DNA of 56,220 bases from Candidatus Sulfotelmatobacter sp. (GTDB taxonomy: Bacteria > Acidobacteriota > Terriglobia > Terriglobales > Acidobacteriaceae): the NCBI GenBank assembly GCA_030041415.1, contig JASHNX010000022.1, positions 1 to 56,220 of the forward strand, in the 5' to 3' direction. The stretch's first letter is position 1. Each line of letters begins with the position of its first letter. The position numbers and the translations under genes are program-made. This document shows positions 30,113-48,300 of this stretch, in pieces. Below the pieces are notes generated by a model that had not been told where the DNA came from, ran no database searches, and saw only the letters and a program-made list of their open reading frames with translations.

Positions 30113-31471
30113 TTACGCCACCCCGCGCGCTTTTGCGGGAGCTGCAGCCATGTCCATCGCCGGCGATGGAGTATTCGATCGCTTTACCACGCGCGCTGCT
30201 AGCGGTTTCAGCCACAATAGTGCCATAAATGCGGCAACGAGATCGCAGATAATCATGGCCCAAAAAACCTTGGTCCACGATCCGGTCTTCGCGAACAGCC
30301 AAGCGGCACCCGGGGCTGCGAAGAAGGTCGCGGCGCCCTTTGCTGTGTAAAGAAGTCCGTAGTTCGTAGTAGCCCACTTGTTACCGTAGAGATCGCCGGT
30401 GATCGAGGGGAACAGCGAATAGATGTTACCCCAGGCGAAGAAACACAATCCGGACAACGCCACGAACCACACCGGCCGATTGATCAACTGCAGCAAAAGC
30501 CAAACGGCCATAGCTTCCAGGACAAAAGAAATAAAAATTGCGTTCTCCCGTCCGATATGATCCGAGACCCATCCCCAGAATGGCCGCGTCAAACCATTCA
30601 GCAGCCGATCAACCGTTATAGCCATGACAAGCGCCGTCATGCCAAACGCGACCACGACGTTATCGACGTGGTAAGACGACGCCATGGGGTTGAGTTGCAC
30701 CGTGACCACGATGCCGCCGAAGGCCAGCATCGTCAGCATGAGATAGAGCACGTAGAAGGATGGTTGCCGCAGCATTTGAACTGGCGTCATATCCACGGCC
30801 GAGGTTTTTACTTTTGCTTTGATCTTGGCTTCTTTCTCTTTCCAATTTGGCGGCGTCCATCCCACGGGCGGCTTGGCCAGAAAAAGCGCAGACACCAGCA
30901 CAACGATCCCCTGAATGAAGCCCCACACGATGAACGTATGCTGGTAGCCGGAGGTTTTCAGCATATTTGCGACGGGAGAGATAGTGCTTGCCGTCCCGAT
31001 TCCGTAGGCTCCGGCGGTCAAACCTACACACAGGCCCCGGCGGTCGGGGAACCACTTGAGCGCGTTGCCGATGGTGCCGCCATATACCGCACCGGCCCCA
31101 ATTCCGCCGAGACCGTACCAAAAATACAGGCTGCGAAGAGACTCGGCATAGCCGGAACCAATCCATCCCAGTCCAACCAGGAATGCACCTACGCCAAGCA
31201 TCAATCGTGGTCCAATCGAATCGACCAGAAATCCTTCAAAGGGAACGAGCCAAGTCTCGAGGGCAATGAACAACGTGATCGTCCATTGCACGGCAACCAG
31301 GCTCACATGGAGGTGCGCCTGGATGGGTTTGGTAAACAATGTCCAGGCATACTGCAAATTAGCTATCGCCATCATGGCAACGATGCCTGCGATAAGCTGT
31401 ATCCAGCGGTTAGGAATGCGAGACGTGTGAATCAGGGAATTCGGGGAGACGCCAGTTTCATAGGAACTCAT
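30113..31471 (-). CDS. OFA-family MFS transporter (OxlT-like, probable oxalate transporter)
   Basis: Twelve-helix major facilitator protein of the oxalate/formate antiporter family, 452 aa. Landmarks: NLQYAWTLFTKPIQAHL in TM1, GLGGIGAGAVYGGTIGNALKWFPDRRGLCVGLTAG reduced to GGIGAGAVYGGTIGNALKWF, GLTRPFWGWVSDHIGREN and NYGLLYTAKGAATFFA. Arg296 and Lys378 are 82 residues apart, close to the spacing of the substrate-binding Arg272 and Lys355 of Oxalobacter OxlT (recalled), supporting a dicarboxylate such as oxalate. GAGGTGA lies seven bases before the ATG. It has its own promoter and operator and a terminator, and is linked to the oxidoreductase operon by the shared operator. The exchanged counter-ion is unknown. 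Confidence 0.87.
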   Translation of the reverse strand: MSSYETGVSPNSLIHTSRIPNRWIQLIAGIVAMMAIANLQYAWTLFTKPIQAHLHVSLVAVQWTITLFIALETWLVPFEGFLVDSIGPRLMLGVGAFLVGLGWIGSGYAESLRSLYFWYGLGGIGAGAVYGGTIGNALKWFPDRRGLCVGLTAGAYGIGTASTISPVANMLKTSGYQHTFIVWGFIQGIVVLVSALFLAKPPVGWTPPNWKEKEAKIKAKVKTSAVDMTPVQMLRQPSFYVLYLMLTMLAFGGIVVTVQLNPMASSYHVDNVVVAFGMTALVMAITVDRLLNGLTRPFWGWVSDHIGRENAIFISFVLEAMAVWLLLQLINRPVWFVALSGLCFFAWGNIYSLFPSITGDLYGNKWATTNYGLLYTAKGAATFFAAPGAAWLFAKTGSWTKVFWAMIICDLVAAFMALLWLKPLAARVVKRSNTPSPAMDMAAAPAKARGVA

Positions 31472-32498: not shown

Positions 32499-32819
32499 TC
32501 AGTCCTCTAAATCCTGCCGAAACACCGGCTGCGCTGGATCGACACTACCCTCGATTACTCCCATCAGCAGGTTCCCGTATGCATTTCTCGCTTCCTCGAG
32601 AGAGTTGTAGCCGCGTTCGCGCTGCAATCCTCCTTCTGAGTAAACGAGCGTGAAGTAGCGTCCGGAAGAATATTGCAGCTCCTGCAAGCTGCCAGGAATA
32701 TCTGGATCACCTTGCTGCCCGAGTACGTCCATGAGGGCCACGGTCCACTTCCTGCCCTTCGGATCGCTGACAACCTCATGCTCCAGGTACTGCCATTCGT
32801 CCATGCGCCAGAGAGCCAT
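32499..32819 (-). CDS. Hypothetical protein, last gene of the oxalate operon
   Basis: 106 aa, soluble, acidic, no signal peptide or cysteine cluster. It begins WRMDEWQYLEHEVVSDPKGR and holds a compact alpha/beta pattern with YFTLVYSEGGLQ and GYNSLEEARNAYGNLLMGVI. I do not recognise a family. The ATG follows the receiver-gene stop by two bases, so it is almost certainly the final cistron of the transcript. Its C terminus is convergent with the HEPN-like gene, 29 bases away. Position suggests an accessory of the oxidoreductase or of its receiver protein; nothing in the sequence defines a reaction. Confidence 0.7.
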   Translation of the reverse strand: MALWRMDEWQYLEHEVVSDPKGRKWTVALMDVLGQQGDPDIPGSLQELQYSSGRYFTLVYSEGGLQRERGYNSLEEARNAYGNLLMGVIEGSVDPAQPVFRQDLED

Positions 32820-32821
32820 AG

Positions 32822-33184
32822 CTAATCCAGTAACTGTCCCAGCGCCCGGCCAACCTGCGAGGCGGTAAACGGCTTTGGTACCAGTAAAACGTTACGGGCT
32901 TTTCGCGATCGCAAGCTCTTCTCTGCTTCCTCCGGCGTGTCGCTGATAATCACCACCGGCAGTTCAGCATGTTTCTCGTCCTGGCGCACGGCGTCGAATA
33001 GAGCTTCGCTCATCTCGTACGAAGTGCAATCGAGAATCACCGCTTCCGAGTGATGCTCCATTGCAAGTTCGTTGACGGCGCTCGTGTATCCCTGCGCGAA
33101 AACCTCGTAACCAAGATCGCGCAGGGAAAACGTAAGCAGTTCGGCAATCTCCGGCGTGTCGTCAATCAGCAGAACGTTCCGCAA
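32822..33184 (-). CDS. Single-domain response regulator (receiver only)
   Basis: CheY-like receiver of 120 aa with no output domain. D8-D9 acidic pair (LLIDDTPE), phosphoacceptor D52 (AVILDCTSYEM), Ser in VVIISDTPEE, and the conserved Lys in LLVPKPF. Start is a TTG three bases after the preceding stop; no better start exists before the first strand and no strong ribosome-binding site is seen, so it is probably translated by coupling. No histidine kinase is nearby. Placement downstream of the 2-oxoacid oxidoreductase beta subunit is unusual and suggests control of, or signalling from, this pathway. Confidence 0.85.
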   Translation of the reverse strand: MRNVLLIDDTPEIAELLTFSLRDLGYEVFAQGYTSAVNELAMEHHSEAVILDCTSYEMSEALFDAVRQDEKHAELPVVIISDTPEEAEKSLRSRKARNVLLVPKPFTASQVGRALGQLLD

Positions 33185-33187
33185 GGG

Positions 33188-33580
33188 TTATTTCTTCGTT
33201 GCCGACCCAGTTCCGGGAAGGCGCGGCTTCTTTCCTGCCGAAGGCTCCAGGTCCATCACCCAGACGCGCCCGCCGGCCGTGTAATAGGCGCGATGATCGT
33301 TCTCGATCATCGCGCCCCACGCTTCCAGCGTACGCATGGCAAACGTGACCCCCTCAAAGTTATTGCGGGCATGGTCGAGCACTTCGTTCGTGTGCCAATT
33401 GTTGGTAAGAATGGCATCGCCTGCGTGGACGCGCAGCACGGTGTAATACTTGTCGTACGCTGCTTCCGGCCGCACATCGCGAGTGGCGCCCCGCTTCTTG
33501 CCTTCGGCAACGATGTAGCTTTCCTGTCCCTCAGGTTCGACTTCCGGCTCTCGAGTTTGTGCAAGTGATTTTGTGCTCAT
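33188..33580 (-). CDS. Hypothetical protein translationally coupled to the oxidoreductase beta subunit
   Basis: 130 aa, soluble, charged at both ends (EPEVEPEGQE and AGKKPRLPGTGSATKK). The core reads YDKYYTVLRVHAGDAILTNN, WHTNEVLDHARNNFEGVTFA, LEAWGAMIENDHRAYYTAGG and RVWVMDLEP. No cysteines, so no Fe-S role. Its ATG overlaps the stop of the beta-subunit gene by four bases with GGAG upstream, implying stoichiometric synthesis. I recognise no family; the tight coupling makes an assembly factor, small subunit or regulator of the oxidoreductase plausible. Confidence 0.75.
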   Translation of the reverse strand: MSTKSLAQTREPEVEPEGQESYIVAEGKKRGATRDVRPEAAYDKYYTVLRVHAGDAILTNNWHTNEVLDHARNNFEGVTFAMRTLEAWGAMIENDHRAYYTAGGRVWVMDLEPSAGKKPRLPGTGSATKK

Positions 33581-34641
33581 ACCGTCTCCGCGACAGCTTC
33601 AGCTTCGGCCGCAGCCGCCATATTGGTAACGTTTTTGGCATCCTCGGCGCGCAGCAACGCCTCAGGAATCTGGATGCCCATCATCTTCCATTGCTGGTTT
33701 GCGAACTTCTGCATGTTGGCGACATGCTCGGCGTGCAAATGACCGAAACGTCCTTGTAGCTTCAGATACTCCGAAACCGGCCTCATGCTTGCCGGACGGA
33801 AGCTGTAGTCGAACTCGCGCTTCTCGGGATTCCATTCCCACATGGGATAAAGACCGCATTCGACCACCACGCGCCCAAGGTCGATGGATCGCGGCGTTTC
33901 ATAAACGAAGCCCTTCTGGCAGGGGGTATAGACCATAAGGTAGGCAGCGCCTTTGTGGTTGAGGCCCTTACGGACTTTGTTCATGAGATCGATGGGATAG
34001 CCGACGCTCGCGGTCGCAACGTAGCAGTGCGGATGTCCCGCCGCCATCATCCTGGCGAGATCCTTCGGATAAAGCTTCTTGCCTTCGGGAACCTCCGGTC
34101 CTGGTGGCGAGAACGTCGTCATGCCGCCATAGGGCGTGCGCGACGAAGCCTGAATACCGGTGTTGGCGTACTGCTCGTTGTCATAGCAGATGATCAGGCA
34201 ATCGTGGTTGCGATAAAGCGCGCCCGAAATTGAAGCAAGACCGATATCCGAGGCGCTGCCGTCGCCCGCTTCGCAAATGATATTCGGAAATTTTCCCTGC
34301 CATTTTCCTTTGCGGATCATCGCTTCATAAGCAGCCGACACGCCGGCCGTGAAGCTGCCCGCGCTGCCGATCTGCGTGTGTGCCCAAGGTATGTTGTAGG
34401 GCGTACACAAATAAGAGCTGTTCGCCACGTACATGCAGCCTGTGGGACCGACCAGAATTGTGTTGTCTCCGGCGGCCTTGCTCGTCATGCGGTATTGAAT
34501 CGACGGCCCGCAGCCCGCGCAGGTGCGATGGCCGGGAACGAACGGTTCGGACTGCGGCAGCTCGGGGTTATAAAAACGGGCGCCCCGGTTGGGGTTTTCC
34601 AGGATCGGCAGTACCTGCCGTTGCACTTCGATAGTTGCCAT
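33577..34641 (-). CDS. 2-oxoacid (probable oxalate) oxidoreductase, beta subunit (thiamine diphosphate and 4Fe-4S)
   Basis: Catalytic thiamine-diphosphate subunit of a 2-oxoacid:acceptor oxidoreductase, 354 aa. GHRTCAGCGPSI supplies C41 and C44, GPTGC supplies C69 and YTPCQKGF the fourth cysteine. The 25-residue step from C44 to C69 equals that of the proximal cluster in pyruvate:ferredoxin oxidoreductase. The cofactor motif GDGSASDIGLASISGALYRN with NEQYANTG is intact. GGGAGG is well placed before the ATG, and a UUCG-loop hairpin lies in the 84-base gap behind the alpha gene. A partner alpha subunit with oxalate-type residues makes oxalate the most likely substrate; pyruvate or another 2-oxoacid remains possible. 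Confidence 0.88.
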   Translation of the reverse strand: MATIEVQRQVLPILENPNRGARFYNPELPQSEPFVPGHRTCAGCGPSIQYRMTSKAAGDNTILVGPTGCMYVANSSYLCTPYNIPWAHTQIGSAGSFTAGVSAAYEAMIRKGKWQGKFPNIICEAGDGSASDIGLASISGALYRNHDCLIICYDNEQYANTGIQASSRTPYGGMTTFSPPGPEVPEGKKLYPKDLARMMAAGHPHCYVATASVGYPIDLMNKVRKGLNHKGAAYLMVYTPCQKGFVYETPRSIDLGRVVVECGLYPMWEWNPEKREFDYSFRPASMRPVSEYLKLQGRFGHLHAEHVANMQKFANQQWKMMGIQIPEALLRAEDAKNVTNMAAAAEAEAVAETV

Positions 34642-34725: not shown

Positions 34726-35931
34726 TTAGTGCTCGAACCCAACCCAGTGCGTCCGCTTCTCGATCTTTCCCTTCTTCTGCGCTTCGATCATTTTTTCCGT
34801 CATCCAATAAAACTCTTTCAGCACGATCGCTTCGCCGCCCATGCCTGCCATGAACGACATCATCAGCGGACGCTTGTCGGCTTCATACAGCGCCGCCGCA
34901 GCCTCGGCATACAAAGCACCACCACTGCTGACGCTGCCCAGCGCCATGTTGGTTTCGATCACTCCCACGACTTTGAACTTGCTGAGCGAATCTTGCACTC
35001 TCTCGGTGGGGTAAGGCCGGATCGTTCTCAGCCGCACCATGCCAACTTTGATGCCGCGCTCACGCATGTGCTGAATGGCAAACCGCGCCGTCACCGCATG
35101 TGCGCCCTGCAAGAAGAAAACGACCTCTGCGTCATCCGTCTTGTACTCTTCCAGCCACGGATCGTACTTGCGCCCGAAGATTTTTCCGAATTCTTCGTGC
35201 GCCTGCTCGATCACCGCCATCGATTCTTCCATTGCCCGTGCCCGTTCAAGCTGCAGGGGAGGGCCTTGCTCGGGCATAATCTGCGGACCGTGGGAAACTG
35301 GCCGCCGCGGATCGAGCGGATATGGATGCTTGTACGGCGGCAGGAACTCTCGCACCTGGCCACCGTCCGGCAATTCCACATCACCCGTAATGTGCGACAC
35401 GAAGAAGCCGTCCTGGCAAACCATTTGCGGCAACAGCACGCGACGGTCTTCGCCGATGCGGTAGGCAATCAGGTGATTGTCGAACGCTTCCTGTGCATCG
35501 CACGACCACCCCATGATCCATCCCATATCGCGCGTCGAGAGTGCGTCGGTGTGCTCCGAGCCAAAGTCGCCCGGAGGATCCAGGGTGCGGTCGGCAATCA
35601 TCATCTGCACCGGCATGCGGCTGCCGGAGATCGGCGAGTACAGCTCGTACGCAAACTGCACGCCCACGCCCGAACTTCCGGTGAAGACTCGAGCTCCAGC
35701 CGAAGCCGCGCCGTGGGCAATGCTCAGTTGCGAGTGCTCGCTGTCGGCCACGATATATTCGGCGTCGAGCTCGCCGTTGGCGACCATCTGGGCTAGCGCC
35801 ATCATTGTGGCCGTGTACGGACGGATCGGATATGCCGCAATCACGTCCACATCAGCGTATTTCGCGGCCTGCGCCGAAGCGACGCAGCCGTTGATACGCA
35901 CCATCCTTTTCTTTGCTTCTGCTACTGGCAT
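34726..35931 (-). CDS. 2-oxoacid (probable oxalate) oxidoreductase, alpha subunit
   Basis: Alpha subunit (domains I and II) of the 2-oxoacid:acceptor oxidoreductase family, 401 aa. The substrate loop reads YPIRPYT, with Arg37 where pyruvate enzymes have Thr (YPITPSS). Further on, ADRTLDPPGDFGSEHTD gives Arg115, Asp118 and Phe123. In Moorella thermoacetica oxalate oxidoreductase the key residues I recall are R31, R109, D112 and F117: all four match at a constant offset of six. This points to oxalate, oxidised to two CO2. C-terminal QGAHAVTARFAIQHMRERGI and VGVIETNMALGS belong to domain II. GGAG is seven bases before the ATG; 27 bases separate it from the flavoprotein gene. Confidence 0.88.
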   Translation of the reverse strand: MPVAEAKKRMVRINGCVASAQAAKYADVDVIAAYPIRPYTATMMALAQMVANGELDAEYIVADSEHSQLSIAHGAASAGARVFTGSSGVGVQFAYELYSPISGSRMPVQMMIADRTLDPPGDFGSEHTDALSTRDMGWIMGWSCDAQEAFDNHLIAYRIGEDRRVLLPQMVCQDGFFVSHITGDVELPDGGQVREFLPPYKHPYPLDPRRPVSHGPQIMPEQGPPLQLERARAMEESMAVIEQAHEEFGKIFGRKYDPWLEEYKTDDAEVVFFLQGAHAVTARFAIQHMRERGIKVGMVRLRTIRPYPTERVQDSLSKFKVVGVIETNMALGSVSSGGALYAEAAAALYEADKRPLMMSFMAGMGGEAIVLKEFYWMTEKMIEAQKKGKIEKRTHWVGFEH

Positions 35932-35958: not shown

Positions 35959-37791
35959 TTAAATGTTCTTCGGCGCACGTTCGTCAAGGTGTTTCAACTG
36001 CTCGGCCTGGCGTCCGTGAAGTCCCGGCGTGATCGCAAAAGCCGTATCCATGCGCACCACCCCAGTATCAAAGTCGAGCTCCGGCACGCCTTCCAGGCAT
36101 CCCGTCGGGCATTCTTCAATGCACACGCGGCAACCTTTGCAGTAGTCGACTAGGATTTTGTAAAGCCCGTTGGATCGCTCCGGCCGTGCAATGCAAGGCT
36201 CGGGACAAACCAGGTAGCAGTTGTCGCAAGCATTGCAGGTTCCGCAACTGAAGCAGCGGTTCGCCTCTTCAACCGCCTGCTCTTCCGTGAACGATTGAAT
36301 GACTTCATCCTGCGTCTTCTTGCGCGTTTTCGGCGGGAGCAAGGTTTGCTGGATGCGCGGGAAATGCGGGAAGTAGGTCATGTTCATGCGATTCAAGTCG
36401 AAGATCACGTCAACTGGAATCGTTCGCGGCTGCAGAGCCTCCCCGCGCAGAACTTTATCCAGGTTGAACGCAACGCGCTTGCCGTCTCCGACTGCGTTGA
36501 CCACCATCAGCGGCTGGCCCGAACCGAGCTGCACAATGTCGCCCGCAGCGAAAAAATTCGTATCGCCCAGGCGTCCGAATTTGTCCGCTTTGATCGTGCC
36601 GCGCTCGTTCTTGAATTCGGCCGGCAGCCAGTTCAACGAAGCATGTTGCCCCACCGCGATGATTACATTGTCGACCGCAAACTTCTCAGGCTTCGCCTCG
36701 CGATCGATGTTGATTGGCGACGCGTTGACCGCACCGGAGAATTTCGCCGGATGCAAATGCAATGCCTCCACCTTGCCATTGCCGAGAACCGCGACGCAGG
36801 CTCGCCCGTGGATTAACTCGACGCCTTCTTCGAGCATGTCGTGCAGATCTTCCGGCACGGCCGGCATCTCTTCCTGATTGCCTTCGACTGTAATCATGGT
36901 CACTTCGATGGCGCCTTGCCGCAGCGCTTCGCGAGCGCAATCGATGGCCGTGTTTCCGCCCCCAATCACGGCCACTCGCGCGCCCAGCTTGACCTTCGAC
37001 GTCCCCATGCCGATGTCGCGCAGGAAGGGCAACCCATACAACACACCTTCTTTGTTCTCGCCTTCCGCGCGAATGCTGTTCGGATCGATTAATCCCACCG
37101 CCAACACGCAGGCATCATAATTTTTCTTGAGATCGTCCCAGGAGACATCTTTGCCGACTTCGCAGTTTGTGCGAATCTCAATGCCGAGTTGTTTCAGACG
37201 CTCAACCTCGCGATCGAGCACGTTCTGCGGCAGCACCCAGTCAGGAATGCCTCCGCGATTCAGTCCCCCCGCTTTTGGCGATTTTTCCAAAATTGTGACT
37301 TTGTACCCCAGGCGCGCCAGTTGATACGCCGCACTGTGACCGGCCGGACCGGAGCCAACAACCGCCACTTTCTTCCCGTTCGGCTTTCCCGCCTGCACGA
37401 CATCGTTCGTCAGCGCCTGGCCGAGATCCCCAAGAAAGCGCTCGACAGCACGAATGGAGATTGCCTCGTCGTACTTGCCGCGGTTGCACGCCTGCTCGCA
37501 CGGGTGATAGCACACGCGCCCCGTGACGGACGGAAACGGCATGTCTTCTTTAATAAGAGCGTAAGCGTCCAGATATTTCCCGCGCTTCACCAAATCGAGA
37601 TAGCCCTGAATTTTTTCGTTCGTGCCGCACGCGTTGTTGCAGGGCGGTAACTTGTCGCGATAGACCGGACGAATCGCGCGCCAGTTGCCGGTAGGAAAGA
37701 GATCCTGCCCCTTTTCCTGCGTGGGTGCGGGCGTGATCCCGGCAAACGGAACTGTAAGCCAATCGGGTATTTTTGTACCTTTGGTCGACAT
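35959..37791 (-). CDS. GltD-like NAD(P)H/FAD oxidoreductase fused to a two-cluster ferredoxin domain
   Basis: 610 aa. The N terminus has the Fe-S domain of glutamate-synthase small subunits (CNNACGTNEK, CYHPCEQACNRGKYDEA), then FAD motif GSGPAGHSAAYQLARLGYKV, NAD(P) motif GGGNTAIDCAREALRQGA and a second FAD contact (NFFAAGDIVQLG). Residues about 513-565 hold two CX2CX2CX3CP motifs (CNACDNCYLVCP and CKGCRVCIEECP), matching the delta (ferredoxin) subunit of 2-oxoacid oxidoreductases. No separate delta gene exists here, so this protein probably takes electrons from the beta subunit and passes them to NAD(P)+ through its flavin. AGAGGA precedes the ATG. It lies between the gamma and alpha genes. 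Confidence 0.9.
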   Translation of the reverse strand: MSTKGTKIPDWLTVPFAGITPAPTQEKGQDLFPTGNWRAIRPVYRDKLPPCNNACGTNEKIQGYLDLVKRGKYLDAYALIKEDMPFPSVTGRVCYHPCEQACNRGKYDEAISIRAVERFLGDLGQALTNDVVQAGKPNGKKVAVVGSGPAGHSAAYQLARLGYKVTILEKSPKAGGLNRGGIPDWVLPQNVLDREVERLKQLGIEIRTNCEVGKDVSWDDLKKNYDACVLAVGLIDPNSIRAEGENKEGVLYGLPFLRDIGMGTSKVKLGARVAVIGGGNTAIDCAREALRQGAIEVTMITVEGNQEEMPAVPEDLHDMLEEGVELIHGRACVAVLGNGKVEALHLHPAKFSGAVNASPINIDREAKPEKFAVDNVIIAVGQHASLNWLPAEFKNERGTIKADKFGRLGDTNFFAAGDIVQLGSGQPLMVVNAVGDGKRVAFNLDKVLRGEALQPRTIPVDVIFDLNRMNMTYFPHFPRIQQTLLPPKTRKKTQDEVIQSFTEEQAVEEANRCFSCGTCNACDNCYLVCPEPCIARPERSNGLYKILVDYCKGCRVCIEECPTGCLEGVPELDFDTGVVRMDTAFAITPGLHGRQAEQLKHLDERAPKNI

Positions 37792-37803: not shown

Positions 37804-38451
37804 CTACACAGCCACTGGGTTGAGTTGCAGTACCTTCATTTCTTCAAGCGCCAGATTGAATGCGTGCTGATTGGCAATCATCGGCTGGATGGTTTTCATC
37901 TGGACGATGCCAGTCGTCTTCACTACCGCCGCGATCAGCGGAGCGGCGATGTCGGGAGCAACCAACTTGCTGCGCTCAGCCGCGCCCTCCGTGGAGAGCC
38001 GGTCGAGGCCGAGTTCGCCCAAGCGGTAATAAAGCCACTTGTGATCTGCCAGCTTCGCTGCGTCTACACAAACTAGTTGCGCCAGGCGCTCCGGCCCAGG
38101 AACAAAGCGCAGCATGTAATCCGGCGTGTAGTGCGTGTTGATGATCAGCGTCCCACCGGGCGGCATGCCGCGCATGTAATCCCACCCTTTCACCATCGTG
38201 CCTTCCACCAGCACGACGATGTTGGGGTGTTCGTTTTCATACGTCAGTTCGTTTTCCAGGATCGCATCGCTCACGCGGCAATATTTCCGCGTCGGGCAAT
38301 TCGTGCGGTCGGGATTATCAACATAGTTTTCCATCGCCTGCGCATACTTGCCTTCCTTTCGCGCCGACGCGGAGACGGAATTAACGATGTCGCGGCCTTC
38401 TTTATCCATGATGATGCCGCGCGTCCAGACTGTCAGTTCGGTATAACTCAT
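37804..38451 (-). CDS. 2-oxoacid (probable oxalate) oxidoreductase, gamma subunit
   Basis: Domain III subunit of the 2-oxoacid oxidoreductase family, 215 aa, Rossmann-like. It begins TVWTRGIIMDKEGRDIVNSV, with NCPTRKYCRVSDAILENELT, NIVVLVEGTMVKGWDYMRG and GGTLIINTHYTPDYM. In Moorella the oxalate enzyme carries gamma fused to the ferredoxin delta domain; here gamma stands alone and the ferredoxin domain is on the next gene. GAGG is five bases before the ATG. It is 22 bases downstream of the CDC48-type gene and 12 bases upstream of the flavoprotein. Confidence 0.85.
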   Translation of the reverse strand: MSYTELTVWTRGIIMDKEGRDIVNSVSASARKEGKYAQAMENYVDNPDRTNCPTRKYCRVSDAILENELTYENEHPNIVVLVEGTMVKGWDYMRGMPPGGTLIINTHYTPDYMLRFVPGPERLAQLVCVDAAKLADHKWLYYRLGELGLDRLSTEGAAERSKLVAPDIAAPLIAAVVKTTGIVQMKTIQPMIANQHAFNLALEEMKVLQLNPVAV

Positions 38452-38473: not shown

Positions 38474-40666
38474 CTAACAGCTCTTCGCAGGCATGGGAAA
38501 TGATCCTTCAACGCCTGGAACCGCTTGTTCACCTGCAAACCGTTGCGAGCCGTTACAGCCAGCTTCGAGCACCGCAACAAAATCATTTCGCAACACCACG
38601 AACGGCGCGCCCCGCGTGCCGTCCTGAAGTTCCGCTATCGCCGAAAGAGTTGCCTTTTTGCAAAGACTTTCGACGTCAGCCCCGGTGAATCCTTCGGTCA
38701 TTTCGGCGAATTCTTCAAACTTAAAGTCAGCGGCCAGTGGAACTTTATGCAAGCACAAACGCATGATCTCGGCGCGTTCGTTCAACCCCGGCTTGGGGAA
38801 ATGCAGAATGTAATCGAATCGCCCGCTGCGCAATAGCGCCGGCTCGATTCTCTCCGGGCGATTGGTCGCTGCCAGCAGAATCACACCCTTCACATCATGC
38901 AGATTGTCGATCTCGCGGAGAAGCTGGCTCAAAATTCTCTGATAAATGTCGCTTCCAAAATGATCGCCGGCAAACTTCGGGGCAATGGCATCGATCGTGT
39001 CAAAGAATAAAATGCAAGGCGCAGCCCGGCGAGCTTTCTTGAAAACCTCCCGCAGCGCACGCTCGGATTCGCCGAGCCACTTCGAATAGAGCTGCGGCCC
39101 ATCGATCGCAAACAGCGGAATCTGCTTTTCTCCGGCAAGCGCCCGCGCCATCGCGGTCTTGCCTGTGCCTGAAGGACCCGCCAAAAGAATGCCTCGCGGT
39201 GGCATCAAACCAACTTGTTCGTAAATTTCGTCGTGAACATGAGAGTGTTCGACGACGCCGTGAAGAACACGCTTCACTTCATCCAGTCCGGCGAGAGAAG
39301 CGAAAGTAGACACGCTCTTTTCAATAAAAAATTCGCGGGTCGCGCTGGGCTCAACTTCTTTCAATCCGGCAAGAAAATCTTCCCGCGTGACCTGCAGCGA
39401 TTCGAGTTCGGACGAAGTTTCGCCGTCGCCCTGGAGCGGATACGCCGTCAGAAATCCGCGTAGAGCATTCATGCCGACTTCCTGGCACAGAGCTTCCAGG
39501 TCCGCGCCAACGAATCCATGAGAGTGCTCGGCAATCTCGCGCAAATCGACGTCATTGGCCAATGGCATCGAGCGCGTATGAATTCGCAAAATCTGCAGAC
39601 GCGCCTGCTGGTTGGGAACTCCAATTTCGATTTCGCGATCGAACCGCCCGGGACGTCGAAGAGCGGGATCGAGAACCTCAGGAATGTTTGTCGCACCAAT
39701 AACAATGACCTGTCCGCGGGCCACGAATCCATCCATCAGGCTGAGAAGCTGGGCGACCACCCGTTTCTCGACTTCGCCGGTGACTTCGGCACGTTTGGGG
39801 GCGACTGCATCGATCTCGTCGATGAACAAAATTGACGGAGCATGGCGCGCCGCTTCTTCGAAAACCTCGCGCAGCTTGGCTTCGCTCTCGCGGTAGAACT
39901 TGCGCATGATCTCGGGACCATTGAGATGAATAAAATGGACACGGCTTTCGGCGGCAACGGCGCGAGCGAGCAGAGTCTTCCCGGTTCCGGGAGGGCCGTA
40001 GAGCAGAACGCCCTTGGGGGCGAGAATTCCCAGTCGCTCGAATACTCGCGAATACTTCAGCGGCAGCTCGACAATCTCGCGAACCCGAGCCACCTCGCGT
40101 TCGAGTCCACCGATATCCTCATAAGAAACCGCCGGCGCCCGCGACGCGCTCTGTTCTCCCTCAACGACGCGGATATCAGTGCGCTTGCCGATCACCACTG
40201 CGCCAGACGGAATCGTGCGCACGACCTGAAAATTAACGGCCTTGGCAAAGGTCGGCACTCGAACCACATTGCCCGCCATCACCGGTACATCGATCAGATC
40301 TTCCAAGATGCGCTGGGGAGCGATGATCGCGGGCGCCGCACCAACCCACATGGGAGAAAGACGAACAGCTACCGCATCTTGCTTCTCGAGCAGCGAAACC
40401 GTGACTTGCTCCTGCAATCCTGCGTTGCAGTTACTGCGGCAAGTCCCATCGATCTGGATCATGCCCTCATGTCCGTCATCGGCAAAGTCTGCGCGGCCCA
40501 CGGCAACAGTACCCCCGGTGATCTTAAGTACGTCTCCGGGCCGCGCACCGATACGGCGAAGATCTGCCTGCGCCATACGGGCGATAGCGTGGCCCACATC
40601 CTCCACAGGCGCTTCCGCAACCCGGAGAGTGAGAACTGATGTAGATGTTGAGGACGTATCGCTCAT
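38474..40666 (-). CDS. CDC48/VCP-type AAA+ ATPase with altered D2 Walker B
   Basis: Tandem AAA+ unfoldase of 730 aa. The N domain is a double-psi barrel (LTLRVAEAPVEDVGHAIARM, then LRRIGARPGDVLKITG); D1 has Walker A GPPGTGKT near 224-231, Walker B FIDEIDAVAP and arginine-finger region RRPGRFD; D2 has Walker A GPSGTGKT near 497. D2 Walker B reads FFDTIDAIAP, Thr557 replacing the catalytic Glu, so D2 probably binds but does not hydrolyse ATP. The start at 40666 is chosen at the N domain; a GTG at 40801 would add 45 unrelated residues. Placed between the GntR gene and the gamma subunit, it may assemble or remodel the Fe-S oxidoreductase. Confidence 0.87.
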   Translation of the reverse strand: MSDTSSTSTSVLTLRVAEAPVEDVGHAIARMAQADLRRIGARPGDVLKITGGTVAVGRADFADDGHEGMIQIDGTCRSNCNAGLQEQVTVSLLEKQDAVAVRLSPMWVGAAPAIIAPQRILEDLIDVPVMAGNVVRVPTFAKAVNFQVVRTIPSGAVVIGKRTDIRVVEGEQSASRAPAVSYEDIGGLEREVARVREIVELPLKYSRVFERLGILAPKGVLLYGPPGTGKTLLARAVAAESRVHFIHLNGPEIMRKFYRESEAKLREVFEEAARHAPSILFIDEIDAVAPKRAEVTGEVEKRVVAQLLSLMDGFVARGQVIVIGATNIPEVLDPALRRPGRFDREIEIGVPNQQARLQILRIHTRSMPLANDVDLREIAEHSHGFVGADLEALCQEVGMNALRGFLTAYPLQGDGETSSELESLQVTREDFLAGLKEVEPSATREFFIEKSVSTFASLAGLDEVKRVLHGVVEHSHVHDEIYEQVGLMPPRGILLAGPSGTGKTAMARALAGEKQIPLFAIDGPQLYSKWLGESERALREVFKKARRAAPCILFFDTIDAIAPKFAGDHFGSDIYQRILSQLLREIDNLHDVKGVILLAATNRPERIEPALLRSGRFDYILHFPKPGLNERAEIMRLCLHKVPLAADFKFEEFAEMTEGFTGADVESLCKKATLSAIAELQDGTRGAPFVVLRNDFVAVLEAGCNGSQRFAGEQAVPGVEGSFPMPAKSC

Positions 40667-40811
40667 CGCAATCCGAAACCCAATCTGATCGCCGTTGTCA
40701 CTCCCGGAGTCACTCTCGCTTTGGCGCGCACGCGTTCCAGAGATTTCCTCCCGCAAGTCGAACAATTCAATGATCCCCAGTTTCGAAGCTGGACGGCCCA
40801 CTTCCGCCAGT

Positions 40812-41519
40812 TCAGAACTTATTCAGCACGATCTCTTCCACATCTTCCAGATGTCGCCACATGGCGGCGCTTGCGGCCTCACTGTCGCGTCGCTTAATCG
40901 CCGCGAGAATGCGCCGGTGACCGGAGAGTGACTTCTGCGGACGACCCGCGACCTGCAGCGAGCGGGCCCGCGTGTCGCGCAACTGCTCCATTAATATGTC
41001 GATCACTTTCAGCACGACGCTGTTATCCGAAGCAAGCGCGACGCTGTAATGGAAGTCGGTGTCTTCATCGACCGCGGCGTCTCCCTGCTTTTGCTTTTCC
41101 TCCTGACGTCGCAAGATCTCCTCCATCTCCGCAATCTCTTCGGGAGAAGCGTGAGTGGCGGCGCGGGCAGCCAGCGGCGGCTCCAACATCTTGCGAAAGT
41201 CGATTAGCTCGCCCACCAGTTCCTTGCGTCGTTTCAAAGCGTTGGCAAATGGATTCACCACCGATTCGGCTGAAATTTCTTTGACGATGGTACCGGTACC
41301 CTGCCGCGGCTCAACCATTCCGAGAAGTTCCAGGCCGCGAATGGCATCGCGAATTGAGCCGCGGCTGACGCGCAGGGTGTCGGCCAATTCGCGTTCGGAT
41401 GGAAGTCGGTCGCCAGGCTTGAGCTTCTTCAGAATGAGGCGCTCGATCTGCTTGGCAACCTCTTCGTATACGCGGTTGCGGCGCACGACTTCGAAATCGG
41501 GTTTGGTCGGAGTTGCCAT
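40812..41519 (-). CDS. GntR/FadR-family transcriptional regulator
   Basis: 235 aa. N-terminal winged helix-turn-helix (residues about 15-80: IERLILKKLKPGDRLPSERE, LADTLRVSRGSIRDAIRGLE, VEPRQGTGTIV) and C-terminal all-helical FCD ligand domain (DFRKMLEPPLAARAATHASP, then DTDFHYSVALASDN, SLSGHRRILAAIKRRDSEAA, MWRHLEDVEEIV). FCD regulators sense small carboxylates such as lactate, pyruvate or glycolate, so an oxalate-related effector fits. First gene of the oxalate operon. The operator candidate 41532-41551 lies just upstream and recurs at the transporter promoter. No clear ribosome-binding site. Confidence 0.9.
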   Translation of the reverse strand: MATPTKPDFEVVRRNRVYEEVAKQIERLILKKLKPGDRLPSERELADTLRVSRGSIRDAIRGLELLGMVEPRQGTGTIVKEISAESVVNPFANALKRRKELVGELIDFRKMLEPPLAARAATHASPEEIAEMEEILRRQEEKQKQGDAAVDEDTDFHYSVALASDNSVVLKVIDILMEQLRDTRARSLQVAGRPQKSLSGHRRILAAIKRRDSEAASAAMWRHLEDVEEIVLNKF

Positions 41520-41621: not shown

Positions 41622-44600
41622 TTAGGGTTCTGGAGGCAACACGTCGTACAGCGGATCTGCTGGCGTCACCATCGGATTCCCGTCGGCCACTGACAGGGCG
41701 AAGATGCGAATCTTGTCGTTGTCGGGCAGGGCCAGCGTTTTCGCGCCCGGCGGCAAGTCGACGGCATATGCGAATAAATACGAATAACGATAGGGTACGT
41801 TTTCGCCCTTGGCATCGTGATGATGATCGCAATACCATGCCAGGTCGGCGCGTTTGATATATCCCGGCTTGAGGCCAATCATCTCGCCGTAGTCATCGTC
41901 TGAAGTATCCTTCGAGCTCCACTGGCGATCATCCCACTGGCCAATGAATCCGCCCCAGTCTTCAATATCAAGATCGATCTTTCTTGGCCCTAGGGTAAAG
42001 GTTGCCTTTTGATCGCCACCGGCAGAGGCTGCAATCAGGTACGCACGGTTGAAATGGCCAGGAGGAAGAGCGATCGATTGGCCTTTCGCTATAAGCGCGT
42101 TGGGAGAATCATTTCCAGCCCCGAGCTCGAATTTCACGTCATTGAAAGTAATCTCCGATGGCAGCTTCTCAGCCGGGAGGGTGTTTCCATGACCGTCAAA
42201 TCCATTATCTAATTTCGTTCCCGCCCGCGTAGCGGTCGCAAGATCAAAGGACAGAGTAACGGGAAACGAATGTGGCGGCGCAACTCTAGTTTTGGCTGCT
42301 GCCAACCGCAGGGCGAAGGTACGCGGTTGGAACGCCGAGAATGAGGTCAGAAGATCTCCGTGTTCGATTTTCGCCGGGCCAACCGGCTGTTCCTGCCCGT
42401 TAACCTCGCGTGTGGCAACGACTGGCGCAGCGAATTGAATGTGAACATCTTTCTGCGGCCTGCCGTCAAGCTCGACCATGCGCACAACGATCTCATCGCT
42501 CAGCTCCGCTTTCTTCAGCGCCATCACGCGAATCCTTCGATTGCTCACCTTGATCAGAGAGAACTCCCGTCCCAGTGTGCCCTCATGCGCTGAAGTCTGA
42601 AACGCGATCAGCGGATCGTTCAGACGCTGACCCTGCCAATCCGTCTGCGCTTCGCGCCATCCCTGCGCATGTCCTGCGATCCCGTAAACAAATTCGTGAT
42701 GCCCGATATCTTGGGTACCCTGGTCCGCATATCCGCCGCGTGTGCCAGGAGTCCTTATTAATGTAAGGCGAATAGTGTAATCGTTCGGCTTGTCCGATCC
42801 ATTCTTGCAATCGGTCAAAATCGTCGCGCCAAATTCTCCGCTCGCATCGGTCAAATCGATCCACTGGTGGGACGGAACTTCGAATTTTTTGGGCTGCGCT
42901 GTCGGCCGCTCGATAGTGCCGATATCCCAGTTGTAGGTCGCAATCTCATTCGAAGCCGCCAACGGGAACACTGCTTTCAGATTCGACTCTTTCGTGTTCC
43001 AGTCGATCGAATTCGCAATCTCGACCCGCTTGCCGGCATCGCCAGAGGAGAGGCGGACAGTCTGCACGAATTTCGACCCAGCGGTTTCACGCGAAATTTC
43101 AACTGCAACCCGCGCCGGACCGTTTTCTACGATGCGAATATTCGCCGGGCCGTGCACGTATTCACGCGGCGCCGCTTGCTCCTGGTCCCAATCCATGTTC
43201 CAGGCTGGCCATTGCGCCGGATTGTCATACGAGATTGCGAGCCGCGCCGGAGCGCTCAACAATTCCCTGCCGATCGATTTGTCAAAGATGCTCTCGATAT
43301 CGCCATCGACGTTGACCTTCACCTGGTAGTAGCGATTTTCGAGGCCATTTTCCGAAACAGGCAGTTCGGAAATCTGATCGACAGCTCCGCGACTCGGCTC
43401 GATGCTGTAAACGGCATAACCTACGCTCGGAGCGTTGGCCACGAAGATAACTTTGCCGTTCGAAACTTGAGCTGGCACAGCCTTCCCATCCGGGCCGGTA
43501 ACGCGCACTGCTGCCGGCATTCCGTCGAGAAACTTCACGCTGGCTTCGACAGTGTCCTCCCGCTCAACATTCAGCGGATTGAAAACCACAACCGGCACAC
43601 CTTTCACCTGCGTATCCATCCCGGCTGCTACGGCCTCCGTCGCATCCGTCAGCACCCCGGCAAACTGATTCATCGCGACTACATCATCATTCCAGGCGAA
43701 CTCGTAAGCCTTCGGGGTCGCAGTTCCGGCGGCGAGATCGTGAAAGTGCCCGCCCATCACCAGCGTCCAGGCATTATTCAAGCGCTCAAGCGGATACGGG
43801 CGAGCGCCCAGCCACTCGGCTGCGACGGAACTCTTTTCCGCTGCATCTGCCAAAAGCTCCTCTTTCCGAAGCCAGCGCTTTTGATACGCCTGCGATGTCA
43901 GCGAGCCAGCCGAGTGGTTGGTTAACTCCATTTCGCCGGTATAACGAGGCAGATTGGCCGCTTCGGCTGGAGTAATATCCAGGAACATTTGCTCGGCATC
44001 GGCGGAGATTACGTGCACCGGGCCCCCGCCAAGCTGGATGGATGGTCCTTGGGCGCGGGAAAAGCGCGAGAACTGAGAATCGACATCAAGCGGCAGACGA
44101 GCCTCGCCGCCAGAAATAATCCCTTCGAGACGCTTGACGGAGTCTTCGTTTGGCGCACCTCCGATATCGCCGGTTCCGTAATAGTGATAATCGGTGAAAA
44201 CACCGCTCACTTTGCCATTCAATTCGACGCGCCCTGCCCAATCATATTGATGGTGGCTCAACTCCTGATCGGCCCGGGCATGTGCTTCGGCCTTCTGCTG
44301 GCTACGCACAGCCAGATATTCCTCAATGTCTTTCGTATCCATCATCGAGTTGGTTGCATCCGCCCGGTCGCGTTTCTGCTGCAATGTTCGCAATTTCTGA
44401 TTAAGATCTGCGAGAAGTTGATCCGGCGGCAGCGGAGCGAGCCGCTCGCTCAAATCGCTGTTGATGCCTGCCGCATAGTCTCCGGGATTTAATCCTGCCA
44501 GCACATATTCGCCATCCGGACCGACCCAGACGCCGACATTAAACGGCGTTCCTTCCGGTGTCTGTTCGAGCGATTCCGGCCCTCCGCCAGGCGCTGAGGA

Positions 44601-45158
44601 TCCCCACACCAGCTTTTGGGTCGAAAATCCTCTTACCCCAGAATGAGCCAGAATCGTCGGCAGCGAGGCGGGGAATCCAAAGCAATCGGGCAGCATGTAT
44701 TCGGCGCTCGCTTTCCCAAACTCCTTGCGAAACCAGTTATTGCCATACAGGATCTGGCGGATGATCGTCTCCGCGCTCGGAGTGTTCACATCGCCCTCCT
44801 CCATCGATGATCCGGCTGGAAACCATCTGCCCTCCTTGACGTAACTTTTCAACCTGGCAAAATCGGCGGGATAGTACTCCTTCATCAGGCGGTAACGATT
44901 CGCGCCGCTGAAATTGAAAATGTAGTGCGGATATTTATCAATCAGCGCGAAGTTGTCGTGCAGAGTGTTGCGCAGATATTCGTTGATTACCTGGGGATAT
45001 TCCCAACGCCACTCGGTATCGAGATGCGCGTAGCCGACGACGTAAAGAGTCGGCTGTTTAGTTAGATCCGGTTTGTTGGACTCCTGGGCCTGAACTGCGC
45101 CTGAAAACACCAGGCAAAACAGAAACGCTGCGAACCAACCGTTCGACGATCTAGCCAT
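41622..45158 (-). CDS. Secreted alpha-mannosidase, glycoside hydrolase family 38
   Basis: Large exported exo-glycosidase (1178 aa) hydrolysing alpha-mannosides. Signal peptide MARSSNGWFAAFLFCLVFSG to VQAQ. Catalytic domain: metal-binding H45 and D47 (YAHLDTEWRWEYP) and likely nucleophile D158 (MLPDCFGFPASLP). A central helical region and GH38 C-terminal beta domains follow (KFVQTVRLSSGDAGKRVEIA), then about 220 extra residues with a beta-sandwich look (ITFNDVKFELGAGNDSPNAL, then ADLAWYCDHHHDAKGENVPY). The start at 45158 is set by GGAGGG eight bases upstream and the signal peptide. It ends about 100 bases before the GntR gene on the same strand but is probably a separate unit. Confidence 0.88.
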   Translation of the reverse strand: MARSSNGWFAAFLFCLVFSGAVQAQESNKPDLTKQPTLYVVGYAHLDTEWRWEYPQVINEYLRNTLHDNFALIDKYPHYIFNFSGANRYRLMKEYYPADFARLKSYVKEGRWFPAGSSMEEGDVNTPSAETIIRQILYGNNWFRKEFGKASAEYMLPDCFGFPASLPTILAHSGVRGFSTQKLVWGSSAPGGGPESLEQTPEGTPFNVGVWVGPDGEYVLAGLNPGDYAAGINSDLSERLAPLPPDQLLADLNQKLRTLQQKRDRADATNSMMDTKDIEEYLAVRSQQKAEAHARADQELSHHQYDWAGRVELNGKVSGVFTDYHYYGTGDIGGAPNEDSVKRLEGIISGGEARLPLDVDSQFSRFSRAQGPSIQLGGGPVHVISADAEQMFLDITPAEAANLPRYTGEMELTNHSAGSLTSQAYQKRWLRKEELLADAAEKSSVAAEWLGARPYPLERLNNAWTLVMGGHFHDLAAGTATPKAYEFAWNDDVVAMNQFAGVLTDATEAVAAGMDTQVKGVPVVVFNPLNVEREDTVEASVKFLDGMPAAVRVTGPDGKAVPAQVSNGKVIFVANAPSVGYAVYSIEPSRGAVDQISELPVSENGLENRYYQVKVNVDGDIESIFDKSIGRELLSAPARLAISYDNPAQWPAWNMDWDQEQAAPREYVHGPANIRIVENGPARVAVEISRETAGSKFVQTVRLSSGDAGKRVEIANSIDWNTKESNLKAVFPLAASNEIATYNWDIGTIERPTAQPKKFEVPSHQWIDLTDASGEFGATILTDCKNGSDKPNDYTIRLTLIRTPGTRGGYADQGTQDIGHHEFVYGIAGHAQGWREAQTDWQGQRLNDPLIAFQTSAHEGTLGREFSLIKVSNRRIRVMALKKAELSDEIVVRMVELDGRPQKDVHIQFAAPVVATREVNGQEQPVGPAKIEHGDLLTSFSAFQPRTFALRLAAAKTRVAPPHSFPVTLSFDLATATRAGTKLDNGFDGHGNTLPAEKLPSEITFNDVKFELGAGNDSPNALIAKGQSIALPPGHFNRAYLIAASAGGDQKATFTLGPRKIDLDIEDWGGFIGQWDDRQWSSKDTSDDDYGEMIGLKPGYIKRADLAWYCDHHHDAKGENVPYRYSYLFAYAVDLPPGAKTLALPDNDKIRIFALSVADGNPMVTPADPLYDVLPPEP

Positions 45159-45279
45159 CCCTGGGCCCTCCAAGACAGAAACGACGAATGCTCCGTCGGC
45201 ATCGAGTATTGTTACACGCCTTCTCGTCAGGGCTGGCAGGAGGTGTGATCAGAAGGACGTGCGGTGGGGCACACGCGTG

Positions 45280-45365: not shown

Positions 45366-48300
45366 ATGATTCATAAGCAAGGCATCGCCAGTCAGTCTTT
45401 ATTAAGGAGTTTCAGATTCAGGCTGGGTTGTACCGCAATCGTTGCAGTTCTACTTTTCTTGCCCCCCCTTCTGCTTGCGGCAGCGAACGGAAGCCTTTCA
45501 GGAACGGTTAAAGATCCTAGCGGAGCGGTAATCCCGGGGGCCAAAATCACCTTGATCAATACTGCGGTCCGTTCGGAATACACCGCACTCTCTAACGAGG
45601 AAGGCCTGTATTCCTTCCCGGCAGTTGCCGCGGGTCAATACGATCTAATGATTGAGGCAGCGGGCTTTAGGAATGAAAGCAAAACCGGTGTCAGTGTCGG
45701 AACGGATTTGACGGCAACGTTCGATGCGGTTCTGCCTTTAGCTGAGGTCTCGCAGTCGGTAAGCGTTGAGGGGAGCAGTACCGCACTGCAAATTCAGGTC
45801 GATATGGTCGACACCCAACTCGGCGAATCGCTAAGCACGTCCCAAATGACGGCTTTGCCGCTCAACGGGCGAAGCTACACCGATCTATTGTCGATCCAGA
45901 CGGGTGTAGCGCCGGCATCGACGCTGCTCGCCAGTTCCGTGATCATGGCGGGAGTCACTGGCGGACTCTCCCCATCTGGGGATTTAAATCCTGGAAATTT
46001 GTCGATTGATGGACAAAGGGAATCATCGAACGGATTCCTTGTGGATGGAATTGATGTGCAGGAGCACATGAACGGCGGGACTTCGATCGTGGCGAACCTC
46101 GATTCGGTTGATGACTTACATGTTCTGACGAACAATTTTGATCCTGAGTACGGAAACTATAACGGCGGCATAGTGACCGTGATCACGAAGTCTGGGAGCG
46201 ATTCGTTTCATGGGAGCGCATTCGAGTTCCTACGCAATACCGATCTCGACGCCCGCGGTTATTTCGATCCAACCCGGCCTGCGTTTCAGCAAAATCAGTT
46301 TGGCGGGACTTTGGGCGGGCCGGTACGGCGACAAAGGATTTATTTTTTTACGGATTATCAGGGAACGCGCACGAATGAGGGGATTGAAACCGGTTTGATC
46401 TCGGTGCCTTCGCTGCAGGACCGATTGGGAAATCTCTCGGATCTCGCAAGCACGCTTAGCGGGACGGTGAGCGGAGGCTATCTTGCCAGCTTGCTGTCGC
46501 AAAAGCTCGGCTATCACGTCTCCGGGGGAGAGCCTTATTACACAGCGGGCTGCACGAGTTCGACGTGCGTGTTTCCGAACGCCAGGATTCCCCAAAGCGC
46601 GTGGTCGGCGCCGGCTCTCGCGCTACGGGAATATATTCCCTCACCTAATGACGGCCCGGATCAATTCTCTACATCGTCTTACGCTGAAACCGTACGCGAC
46701 GATAAACTTTCCGGCCGCATCGATGCCAGTACGCGATGGGGGCAGATTTCTTCATATTACTTTCTTGATGATTACCGGCTCGATAATCCCTATCCGGGCC
46801 AGCAAGGGGGAGCCAACGTACCGGGCTTCGACGCACTGAATTTCGGCAAAGCACAATTGCTGAGCCTTGGCGACACCAAAACATTTGGAAGCAATTCGAT
46901 GAATGAGTTTCACGTGGGATATCTCCGCTACGCCAACGTGATCGGCCAGCCGAAAGGTGGGTTGGGAGCGAGTCTCGCAGCACAGGGCTTCGTTTCCCCT
47001 TCTGGCGTTCCAGGATTCACGGTGCAGGCGCCACAGTTTCAAGGTGTGGAAAACATAGTATTTCCCGCCTTCACGATGGGCGTTCCGATCACCAATGAGA
47101 CCCAAATCAACAACACTCTCTACGCCAGCGACACGTTCTCCAAAGTGTTGGGAGCGCACACGCTCAAGTTCGGGGGACAATTTCATGTCGATCAGGTGAA
47201 CGAGCATCCGAACGCAACCTTCAATGGCACCTTCAACATCGATGGGACCGAGACCGGCTCAGCGTTTGCCGACTTCCTGATTGGAGTGCCCAGCAACTTC
47301 ACGCAATCTTCTGGCGAACCATTCTACTTGCGCAATCGGTACGAAGGCGTATTCGCGCAGGATAGCTGGCGGGCGCGTCCGGATCTGACACTCAACTTCG
47401 GGCTACGCTGGGACTACATTATGCCCTTCTGGGAGAAGTACAACGAGCTGCAGACCATCATTCCGGGCAGGCAATCGGTGCTTTATCCGGGTGCGCCGCA
47501 AGGATTGGTAGTTCCCGGCGATCCCGGAATTCCGAGCACGATTTCTCCAGCCAGGTGGGATAACTTCGCCCCCCGAATCGGTGTTGCGTACGCTCCGAAA
47601 TTCGAGAACGGAATCTTGAAGACAGTTTTTGGAGACGGAAGTAAGAGCAGTATTCGGGCGAGCTATGGGCTGTTCTACACGGCCTTCCCGGGACTTTCAG
47701 CTGGCATTATGTATGCAGTTCCTCCATTTGGCTACACGTACCTAACTCCGCAGCCGCCACTTTTGGCAACGCCTTTTGTCAGTGCGGCGAACGGCGCCGA
47801 AAATACGAATCCGTTTCCTATAGCATTCCCTTCGCACAATGTTTCGGCACAAAATCCGGATACGGCCTTTAATTGGCGGAGTGTAATCCCAATCGAGGGC
47901 GATCCCTATTTCTATTATCACAATACAACGCCGTACACCGAGAACTACATGCTCTCATTCGAGCGCCAACTCGCGCCCAAAATGCTGTTAACCACAAGTT
48001 ATGTGGGCAATCAGGGGCATCACATTCTCGGCGTAGTTTCGACGAATCCCGGCAATCAGGCTTTGTGTCTGGCTTTGAGCCACCCAGACGAGGTCGCGCT
48101 GGGAAGTCCCACTTGCGGTCCATTCAGCGAGGGTGCGCGCATCACCAGCAGCGGCGGACGCGTCTACGAAGGAACTCGCGTGGGCCTCGGCCCCAACTAC
48201 GGAGAAGTCACCGCCCAGAAAACGATTGCAAACTCTAATTACAACGCACTCGAGACCAATCTACGGTATGTCGGCCAGAGATCCGATTTTCTGCTGGCAT

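Follow-up and report, generated by a model that had tools for sequence, protein, structure and literature searches.

Oxalate oxidoreductase cleaves oxalate into two molecules of CO2 and is known from anaerobic acetogens. A 56,220-nucleotide stretch of DNA from Candidatus Sulfotelmatobacter sp. (GenBank assembly GCA_030041415.1, contig JASHNX010000022.1), which we analysed as a whole and refer to as the window, encodes an alpha subunit for which a preliminary description had proposed an oxalate-type active site. Unlike Moorella, the organism is to our knowledge not an acetogen. The locus raises the question of whether its enzyme acts on oxalate and, if so, by what route the acid enters the cell and its electrons leave the complex.

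Identity of the alpha subunit

In a phmmer search of the PDB, residues 12-400 of the window alpha subunit aligned without gaps to residues 6-394 of 5c4i_A, the alpha subunit of the Moorella thermoacetica oxalate oxidoreductase (PDB 5c4i, 5exd, 5exe; Moth_1591-1592 are its beta and alpha subunits), with an E-value of 8.9e-154, 58% identity, and a score of 516 bits, versus 232 bits for the second-best solved relative, the Methanosarcina pyruvate enzyme 9bt4. The preliminary description had placed R37, R115, D118, and F123 at a constant distance of six residues from R31, R109, D112, and F117 of the Moorella enzyme across about 85 residues. All four coincide in this alignment, R37 within YPIRPYT in place of the pyruvate-type motif and the other three within the loop ADRTLDPPGDFG, and the offset of six is constant along 389 residues, which is far beyond chance; D122 corresponds to Moorella D116. 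Against NF045791, the NCBIfam equivalog of this alpha subunit in oxalate oxidoreductases, the subunit scored 586.3 bits (cut-off 500). The NCBIfam models of this enzyme are narrow, as a same-clade alpha subunit from Actinomadura reached just 503 bits with the same model. Alpha subunits of related acidobacterial genomes were 85-97% identical to that of the window, and an oxalate oxidoreductase over the cut-off was found, patchily, in 8 of 25 genomes of the genus.

An AlphaFold2 model of the subunit had a mean pLDDT of 86 and fell below 50 solely at residues 1-5 and 116-123, and Foldseek ranked 5c4i_D and 5c4i_A first among its matches (TM 0.93/0.95). The second low-confidence stretch is the switch loop, and an uncertain loop in an otherwise confident model agrees with, but does not prove, a loop that moves.

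The active-site residues were compared in an alignment of 124 alpha sequences, to which ten PadG proteins were then added. Every member of the oxalate clade (54-100% identity) carried [YF]PIRPYT together with LDPPGDFG. A sister clade (41-46% identity) carried YPIRPY[DT] and NRALDDPG[AN]FG, keeping R31, R109, D112, and F117 with alanine or asparagine at the position of D116. PorA-type alpha subunits had YPITP[QS] and lacked D112 and F117, and PadG had YPITPQ and TRD.LTPQ.VW, without equivalents of R31, D112, or F117. Because all of the PorA and PadG rows examined have an equivalent of R109, R115 does not discriminate; the proposal that the residue set is diagnostic of oxalate enzymes held for R37, D118, and F123 against PorA and PadG, but not for R115. 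Similarly, the named residues were absent as a set from the pyruvate-type and phenylglyoxylate enzymes, but the sister clade has all four. In these alignments, R37, D118, and F123 mark both YPIRP clades, and it is D122 that sets the characterised oxalate clade apart from its sister. This provides a simple marker: YPIRPYT with LDPPGDFG for true oxalate oxidoreductases versus YPIRPY[DT] with LDDPG[AN]FG for the sister clade, which is widespread and uncharacterised.

A published discussion of these residues describes YPIRP as a unique motif and assigns substrate binding and the bait-and-switch mechanism to Arg31, Arg109, and Asp116 rather than Asp112 (PMC5020499). The preliminary description had given D112 as the switch-loop residue, which is conserved in the window as D118 but is not the aspartate named in that work. 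The exact switch residue in Moorella may be Asp112 or Asp116; as D118 and D122 are both kept in the window, the residue match stands in either case.

An IQ-TREE phylogeny of 88 alpha subunits, in which the long outgroup branches flagged by the program were kept, recovered an oxalate clade that included 5c4i_A and the window alpha with support of 100/100 and in 100% of 200 bootstrap trees. Support was 100/98 for the sister clade and 100/100 for both clades jointly, apart from PorA and PadG. The oxalate-type identity of the subunit is thus backed by sequence, tree, predicted fold, and a curated family model, as well as by the gene neighbourhood described below. Two other identities were rejected: pyruvate-type by the YPIRP motif, the tree, and the score with the PorA model (349.4 bits, cut-off 550), and phenylglyoxylate dehydrogenase by the motifs, the tree, and the score with the PadG model (263.9 bits, cut-off 700). 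The Methanosarcina PorA pyruvate:ferredoxin oxidoreductase (9bt4) has the same fold and domain order as the window alpha (TM 0.90) and the R109 equivalent, but it carries YPITPQT, lacks D112 and F117, and falls on another branch of the tree.

Operon and electron module

The alpha gene lies in a run of minus-strand genes separated by short gaps, in the order GntR/FCD regulator, AAA+ ATPase, gamma, 610 aa flavoprotein, alpha, beta, 130 aa protein, receiver domain, and 106 aa protein (Table 1). In the PDB, the top matches of beta and gamma, like that of alpha, belonged to the Moorella complex 5c4i. The best NCBIfam models for beta and gamma were OxalOxredbeta (445.5 bits) and OxalOxreddelta (172.3 bits), both under their cut-offs of 590 and 230, respectively. 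Beta retains the CAGC, TGC, and PC cysteines and the TPP motif AGDG...YDNEQYANTG. The Moorella and window enzymes have in common the alpha, beta, and gamma sequences, YPIRPYT, the full switch loop, and the TPP and cluster ligands of beta. They differ in that the Moorella delta subunit is a fusion of gamma with a two-cluster ferredoxin, whereas the window encodes gamma on its own and has the ferredoxin joined to an FAD/NAD(P) protein.

Table 1. Positions of the genes and motifs of the oxalate oxidoreductase locus within the window
Feature	Position	Strand	Remarks
Oxalate/formate MFS antiporter	30113..31471	-	452 aa; TIGR04259 476 bits, cut-off 335
106 aa protein, no known family	32499..32819	-	Last of the co-directional run; conserved neighbour in acidobacterial loci
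Stand-alone response-regulator receiver domain	32822..33184	-	PF00072 30.6 bits; conserved in acidobacterial operons
130 aa protein, no known family	33188..33580	-	Shares 4 bases with the end of the beta gene; conserved in acidobacterial operons
Beta subunit (TPP-binding, proximal [4Fe-4S])	33577..34641	-	354 aa; PDB 5c4i_C, E 1.6e-116
Alpha subunit of oxalate oxidoreductase	34726..35931	-	401 aa, ATG start; TPP-enzyme pyrimidine domain and domain II
Switch loop ADRTLDPPGDFG (alpha residues 113-124)	35560..35595	-	R115, D118, D122, F123
YPIRPYT motif (alpha residues 34-40)	35812..35832	-	R37 = Moorella R31, substrate arginine
Electron module	35959..37791	-	610 aa; Fer4_20, FAD/NAD(P) (GltD/NfnB-like), C-terminal 2x[4Fe-4S] ferredoxin
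Gamma subunit (first part of Moorella delta)	37804..38451	-	215 aa; 5c4i_B residues 14-210, E 5.9e-44
CDC48-type AAA+ ATPase	38474..40801	-	TIGR01243 765 bits; start uncertain, GTG as listed
GntR/FCD regulator	40812..41519	-	First gene of the apparent operon; PF00392, PF07729

The 610 aa protein carries Pfam Fer4_20 and Pyr_redox_2 in its first 450 residues, and its C-terminus matches OxalOxreddelta 258-315 (E 6.8e-14); its ferredoxin domain takes the place of the ferredoxin part of Moorella delta. The protein contains the motifs CNACDNCYLVCP and CKGCRVCIEECP. It has Fer4_20 and the FAD/NAD(P) Rossmann domains in common with flavoproteins of the GltD/NfnB type (PDB 4ylf_B, 9n5u, 9bov), and differs from them in being fused to a PorD-like two-cluster domain, in lying in a 2-oxoacid oxidoreductase operon, and in the replacement of the YRR motif. 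A role in glutamate synthase was set aside because the C-terminus matches the delta ferredoxin and the gene lies between gamma and alpha. A functional parallel in outline is the NAD-linked phenylglyoxylate dehydrogenase PadEFGHI, which joins a 2-oxoacid oxidoreductase core to an NAD+-reducing flavoprotein, but PadG forms a separate clade from the window alpha in the tree, and the 25 best models listed for the 610 aa protein included none for PadH.

The nucleotide loop of the 610 aa protein reads VTMITVE instead of YRR (window loop VTMITVEGNQEEMP), actinobacterial members have S-L-E at this site, and Val-Glu or Leu-Glu replaces the 2'-phosphate-binding YRR of the NADPH loop in all of the acidobacterial and actinobacterial fusions examined. 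NAD+ is therefore the predicted coenzyme, such a reading from a loop motif being often right though not certain. The oxalate/CO2 couple has a more negative potential than NAD+/NADH, so a flow of electrons from oxalate to NAD+ is feasible. The flavoprotein might instead be an NADP-linked or bifurcating Nfn-like module that passes the electrons of an oxalate oxidoreductase to ferredoxin or NADP+, as NfnA and Nfn subunit chains are among the nearest solved relatives of the 610 aa protein, which contains a two-cluster ferredoxin domain; we regard this as unlikely, given the loss of both NADPH-loop arginines in the two phyla and the finding of no second flavoprotein subunit in the operon.

Among the loci compared, the flavoprotein fusion was found only in Acidobacteria and Actinobacteria (e.g., Actinomadura sp. 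NBRC 104412), where it occurs together with gamma and alpha at the acidobacterial loci and at 4/4 actinobacterial loci. The other oxalate-clade members compared had a separate ferredoxin of ~100-150 aa or the Moorella-type fusion, and in view of these varied layouts we treated the gamma-ferredoxin fusion as variable rather than defining. The acidobacterial and actinobacterial alpha subunits formed one group in the tree (100/99; locus L081 was left out of the tree), so the fused form is most simply read as having arisen once.

Partner genes, transport, and a second operon

The CDC48-type AAA+ ATPase recurs as a conserved operon partner in the oxalate oxidoreductase clade. When the count was restricted to loci whose flanks on both sides of alpha reached 6.5 kb or more, its gene was present in 19 of 23 oxalate-clade loci versus 0 of 11 sister-clade loci (Fisher 4.8e-6), and it occurred in 8 of 41 related genomes, 7 of these being among the 8 with an oxalate oxidoreductase over the cut-off (Fisher 2.8e-6), although both Fisher values are inflated by linkage and shared ancestry. 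The ATPase of the operon was the sole match in its genome at E <= 1e-140. The association spans Bacillota, Pseudomonadota, Thermodesulfobacteriota, Nitrospirota, and Acidobacteriota, and in Moorella stamsii (L054) the gene adjoins the oxidoreductase as it does in the window. We infer that the ATPase probably serves the complex in its assembly, repair, or reactivation. The literature searched contained no paper linking oxalate with CDC48/AAA proteins or describing an AAA+ partner dedicated to a 2-oxoacid oxidoreductase, and nothing relevant linking oxalate with Sulfotelmatobacter.

GntR regulators were found near 33 of the 59 oxalate-clade loci, and the GntR/FCD protein of the window probably senses oxalate. 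At the other end of the operon, the 130 aa protein had no Pfam or NCBIfam match and a mean column identity of 77% over 14 loci, and its predicted structure (pLDDT 71, mediocre) had no fold match in the PDB at E <= 0.001. The receiver domain and the 106 aa protein, which had no Pfam match, end the operon and were found among the loci compared only in acidobacterial ones. Scans for promoters and terminators gave no more signals than shuffled sequence. Beyond the regulator, positions 41622-45173 encode a 1183 aa protein resembling glycoside hydrolase family 38 alpha-mannosidases, after which a divergently oriented gene (45366-48953) encodes a 1195 aa outer-membrane beta-barrel protein.

The oxalate/formate antiporter gene is separated from the 106 aa gene by one gene on the opposite strand, and its product also scored barely over the cut-off of an L-lactate transporter model (324.9 bits versus 320). 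In the host genome (95.6% complete), there was no match to frc and the matches to oxc were distant and far below the cut-off, and a CoA-dependent route in this genome was rejected on these grounds. As context for oxalate as the substrate, the antiporter and the lack of a CoA route carry the most weight, and they support the prediction that oxalate is cleaved to two CO2 without CoA. Elsewhere, a Betaproteobacteria bacterium (L045, genome G434) combines an oxalate oxidoreductase with an oxalyl-CoA decarboxylase that scored over the cut-off (1001 bits, cut-off 739.4), so the two oxalate routes can coexist.

TctC/TctA carboxylate transporter genes lie by several loci of both YPIRP clades (L061:10429-11439, L067:5659-7188, L097:7011-10072), where they seem to take the place of the antiporter, and TctCBA genes were found at seven sister-clade loci and likewise at several oxalate-clade loci. 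As these carriers are not oxalate-specific, and as the sister clade has all four of the residues named earlier, the alpha/beta core could be thought to use another small dianionic or polar 2-oxoacid, such as mesoxalate or glyoxylate, with YPIRP indicating a charged second group only. This is highly improbable, since the window alpha falls within the characterised Moorella clade with every loop residue, D116 included, and relatives of the oxalate/formate antiporter lie beside 21 of the 59 oxalate-clade loci.

The host genome has a second operon of this kind, on contig C342 (L018:2034-7937), which consists of a GntR regulator, a gamma-ferredoxin fusion, alpha, beta, and, directly downstream, an oxalate/formate antiporter (393 bits, cut-off 335). 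Its alpha subunit belongs to the sister clade, with YPIRPYD/LDDPGAFG and alanine at the D116 site. With its own GntR regulator, its Moorella-like fusion, and its adjacent antiporter, this operon (G000:C342) could be the genome's real oxalate enzyme and that of the window a diverged accessory copy. We consider such an arrangement very unlikely: the alpha subunit of the window shares 58% identity with the Moorella enzyme, retains D116, and is conserved at 85-97% identity in related acidobacterial genomes, whereas the C342 alpha is 41% identical to that of the window and has alanine in place of D116. The sister clade occurs in Rokuibacteriota, Armatimonadota, Chloroflexota, Myxococcota, archaea, and others, and because some of its loci lie beside oxalate/formate or TctABC transporters it does not contradict an oxalate function; it may represent a second oxalate enzyme or an enzyme for a related acid.

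Proposed mechanism and significance

The product of the window operon is thus likely an oxalate oxidoreductase, dependent on TPP and iron-sulfur clusters, that converts oxalate to two CO2, with electrons passing most likely to NAD+. Oxalate would be taken up by the OFA-family antiporter, or else by a related carboxylate carrier, and be cleaved by the bait-and-switch chemistry of Moorella, in which R37 and R115 would attract and hold the oxalate dianion and the mobile loop 115-124 would then bring in an acidic side chain, driving decarboxylation. The two electrons would move from the cluster of beta to the two-cluster domain of the 610 aa protein, then to the flavin, and most likely on to NAD+, and the NADH would feed the respiratory chain. 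The sequences themselves show the homology, the conserved residues, the membership of the clade, the content of the operon, and the loss of the NADP-type arginines; from these we infer the substrate, the direction of the reaction, the electron acceptor, and what the ATPase does. Several points weigh against this reading, namely the scores of beta and gamma under the NCBIfam cut-offs, the non-Moorella electron module, the match of the antiporter to the lactate model, and the patchiness of the enzyme in the genus. Enzymes of this type are usually oxygen-sensitive, and the presence of one in an organism with respiratory oxidases (three haem-copper oxidases in the host genome) needs explaining.

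The core of the enzyme belongs to a known family; what appears to be new, as read from the genes, is the NAD-type electron module, the acidobacterial host with respiratory oxidases, and the AAA+ partner. We give even chances to the broader proposal that Acidobacteriota and Actinomycetota hold a single-origin branch of oxalate oxidoreductases in which the cleavage of oxalate is linked directly to NAD+ and aerobic respiration without recourse to the CoA-dependent frc/oxc route, and that in the wider clade most members have a CDC48-type AAA+ ATPase dedicated to the complex. Oxalate is a large pool of soil carbon. Surveys of bacterial oxalate breakdown target frc, oxc, oxdC, and oxlT only, and one from 2023 placed the remaining types of pathway in eukaryotes or in particular bacteria, acetogens among them (PMC10192776). 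If the window operon acts in the way proposed, soil acidobacteria and actinobacteria would have a CoA-free, NAD-linked route of oxalate oxidation that such surveys have missed.
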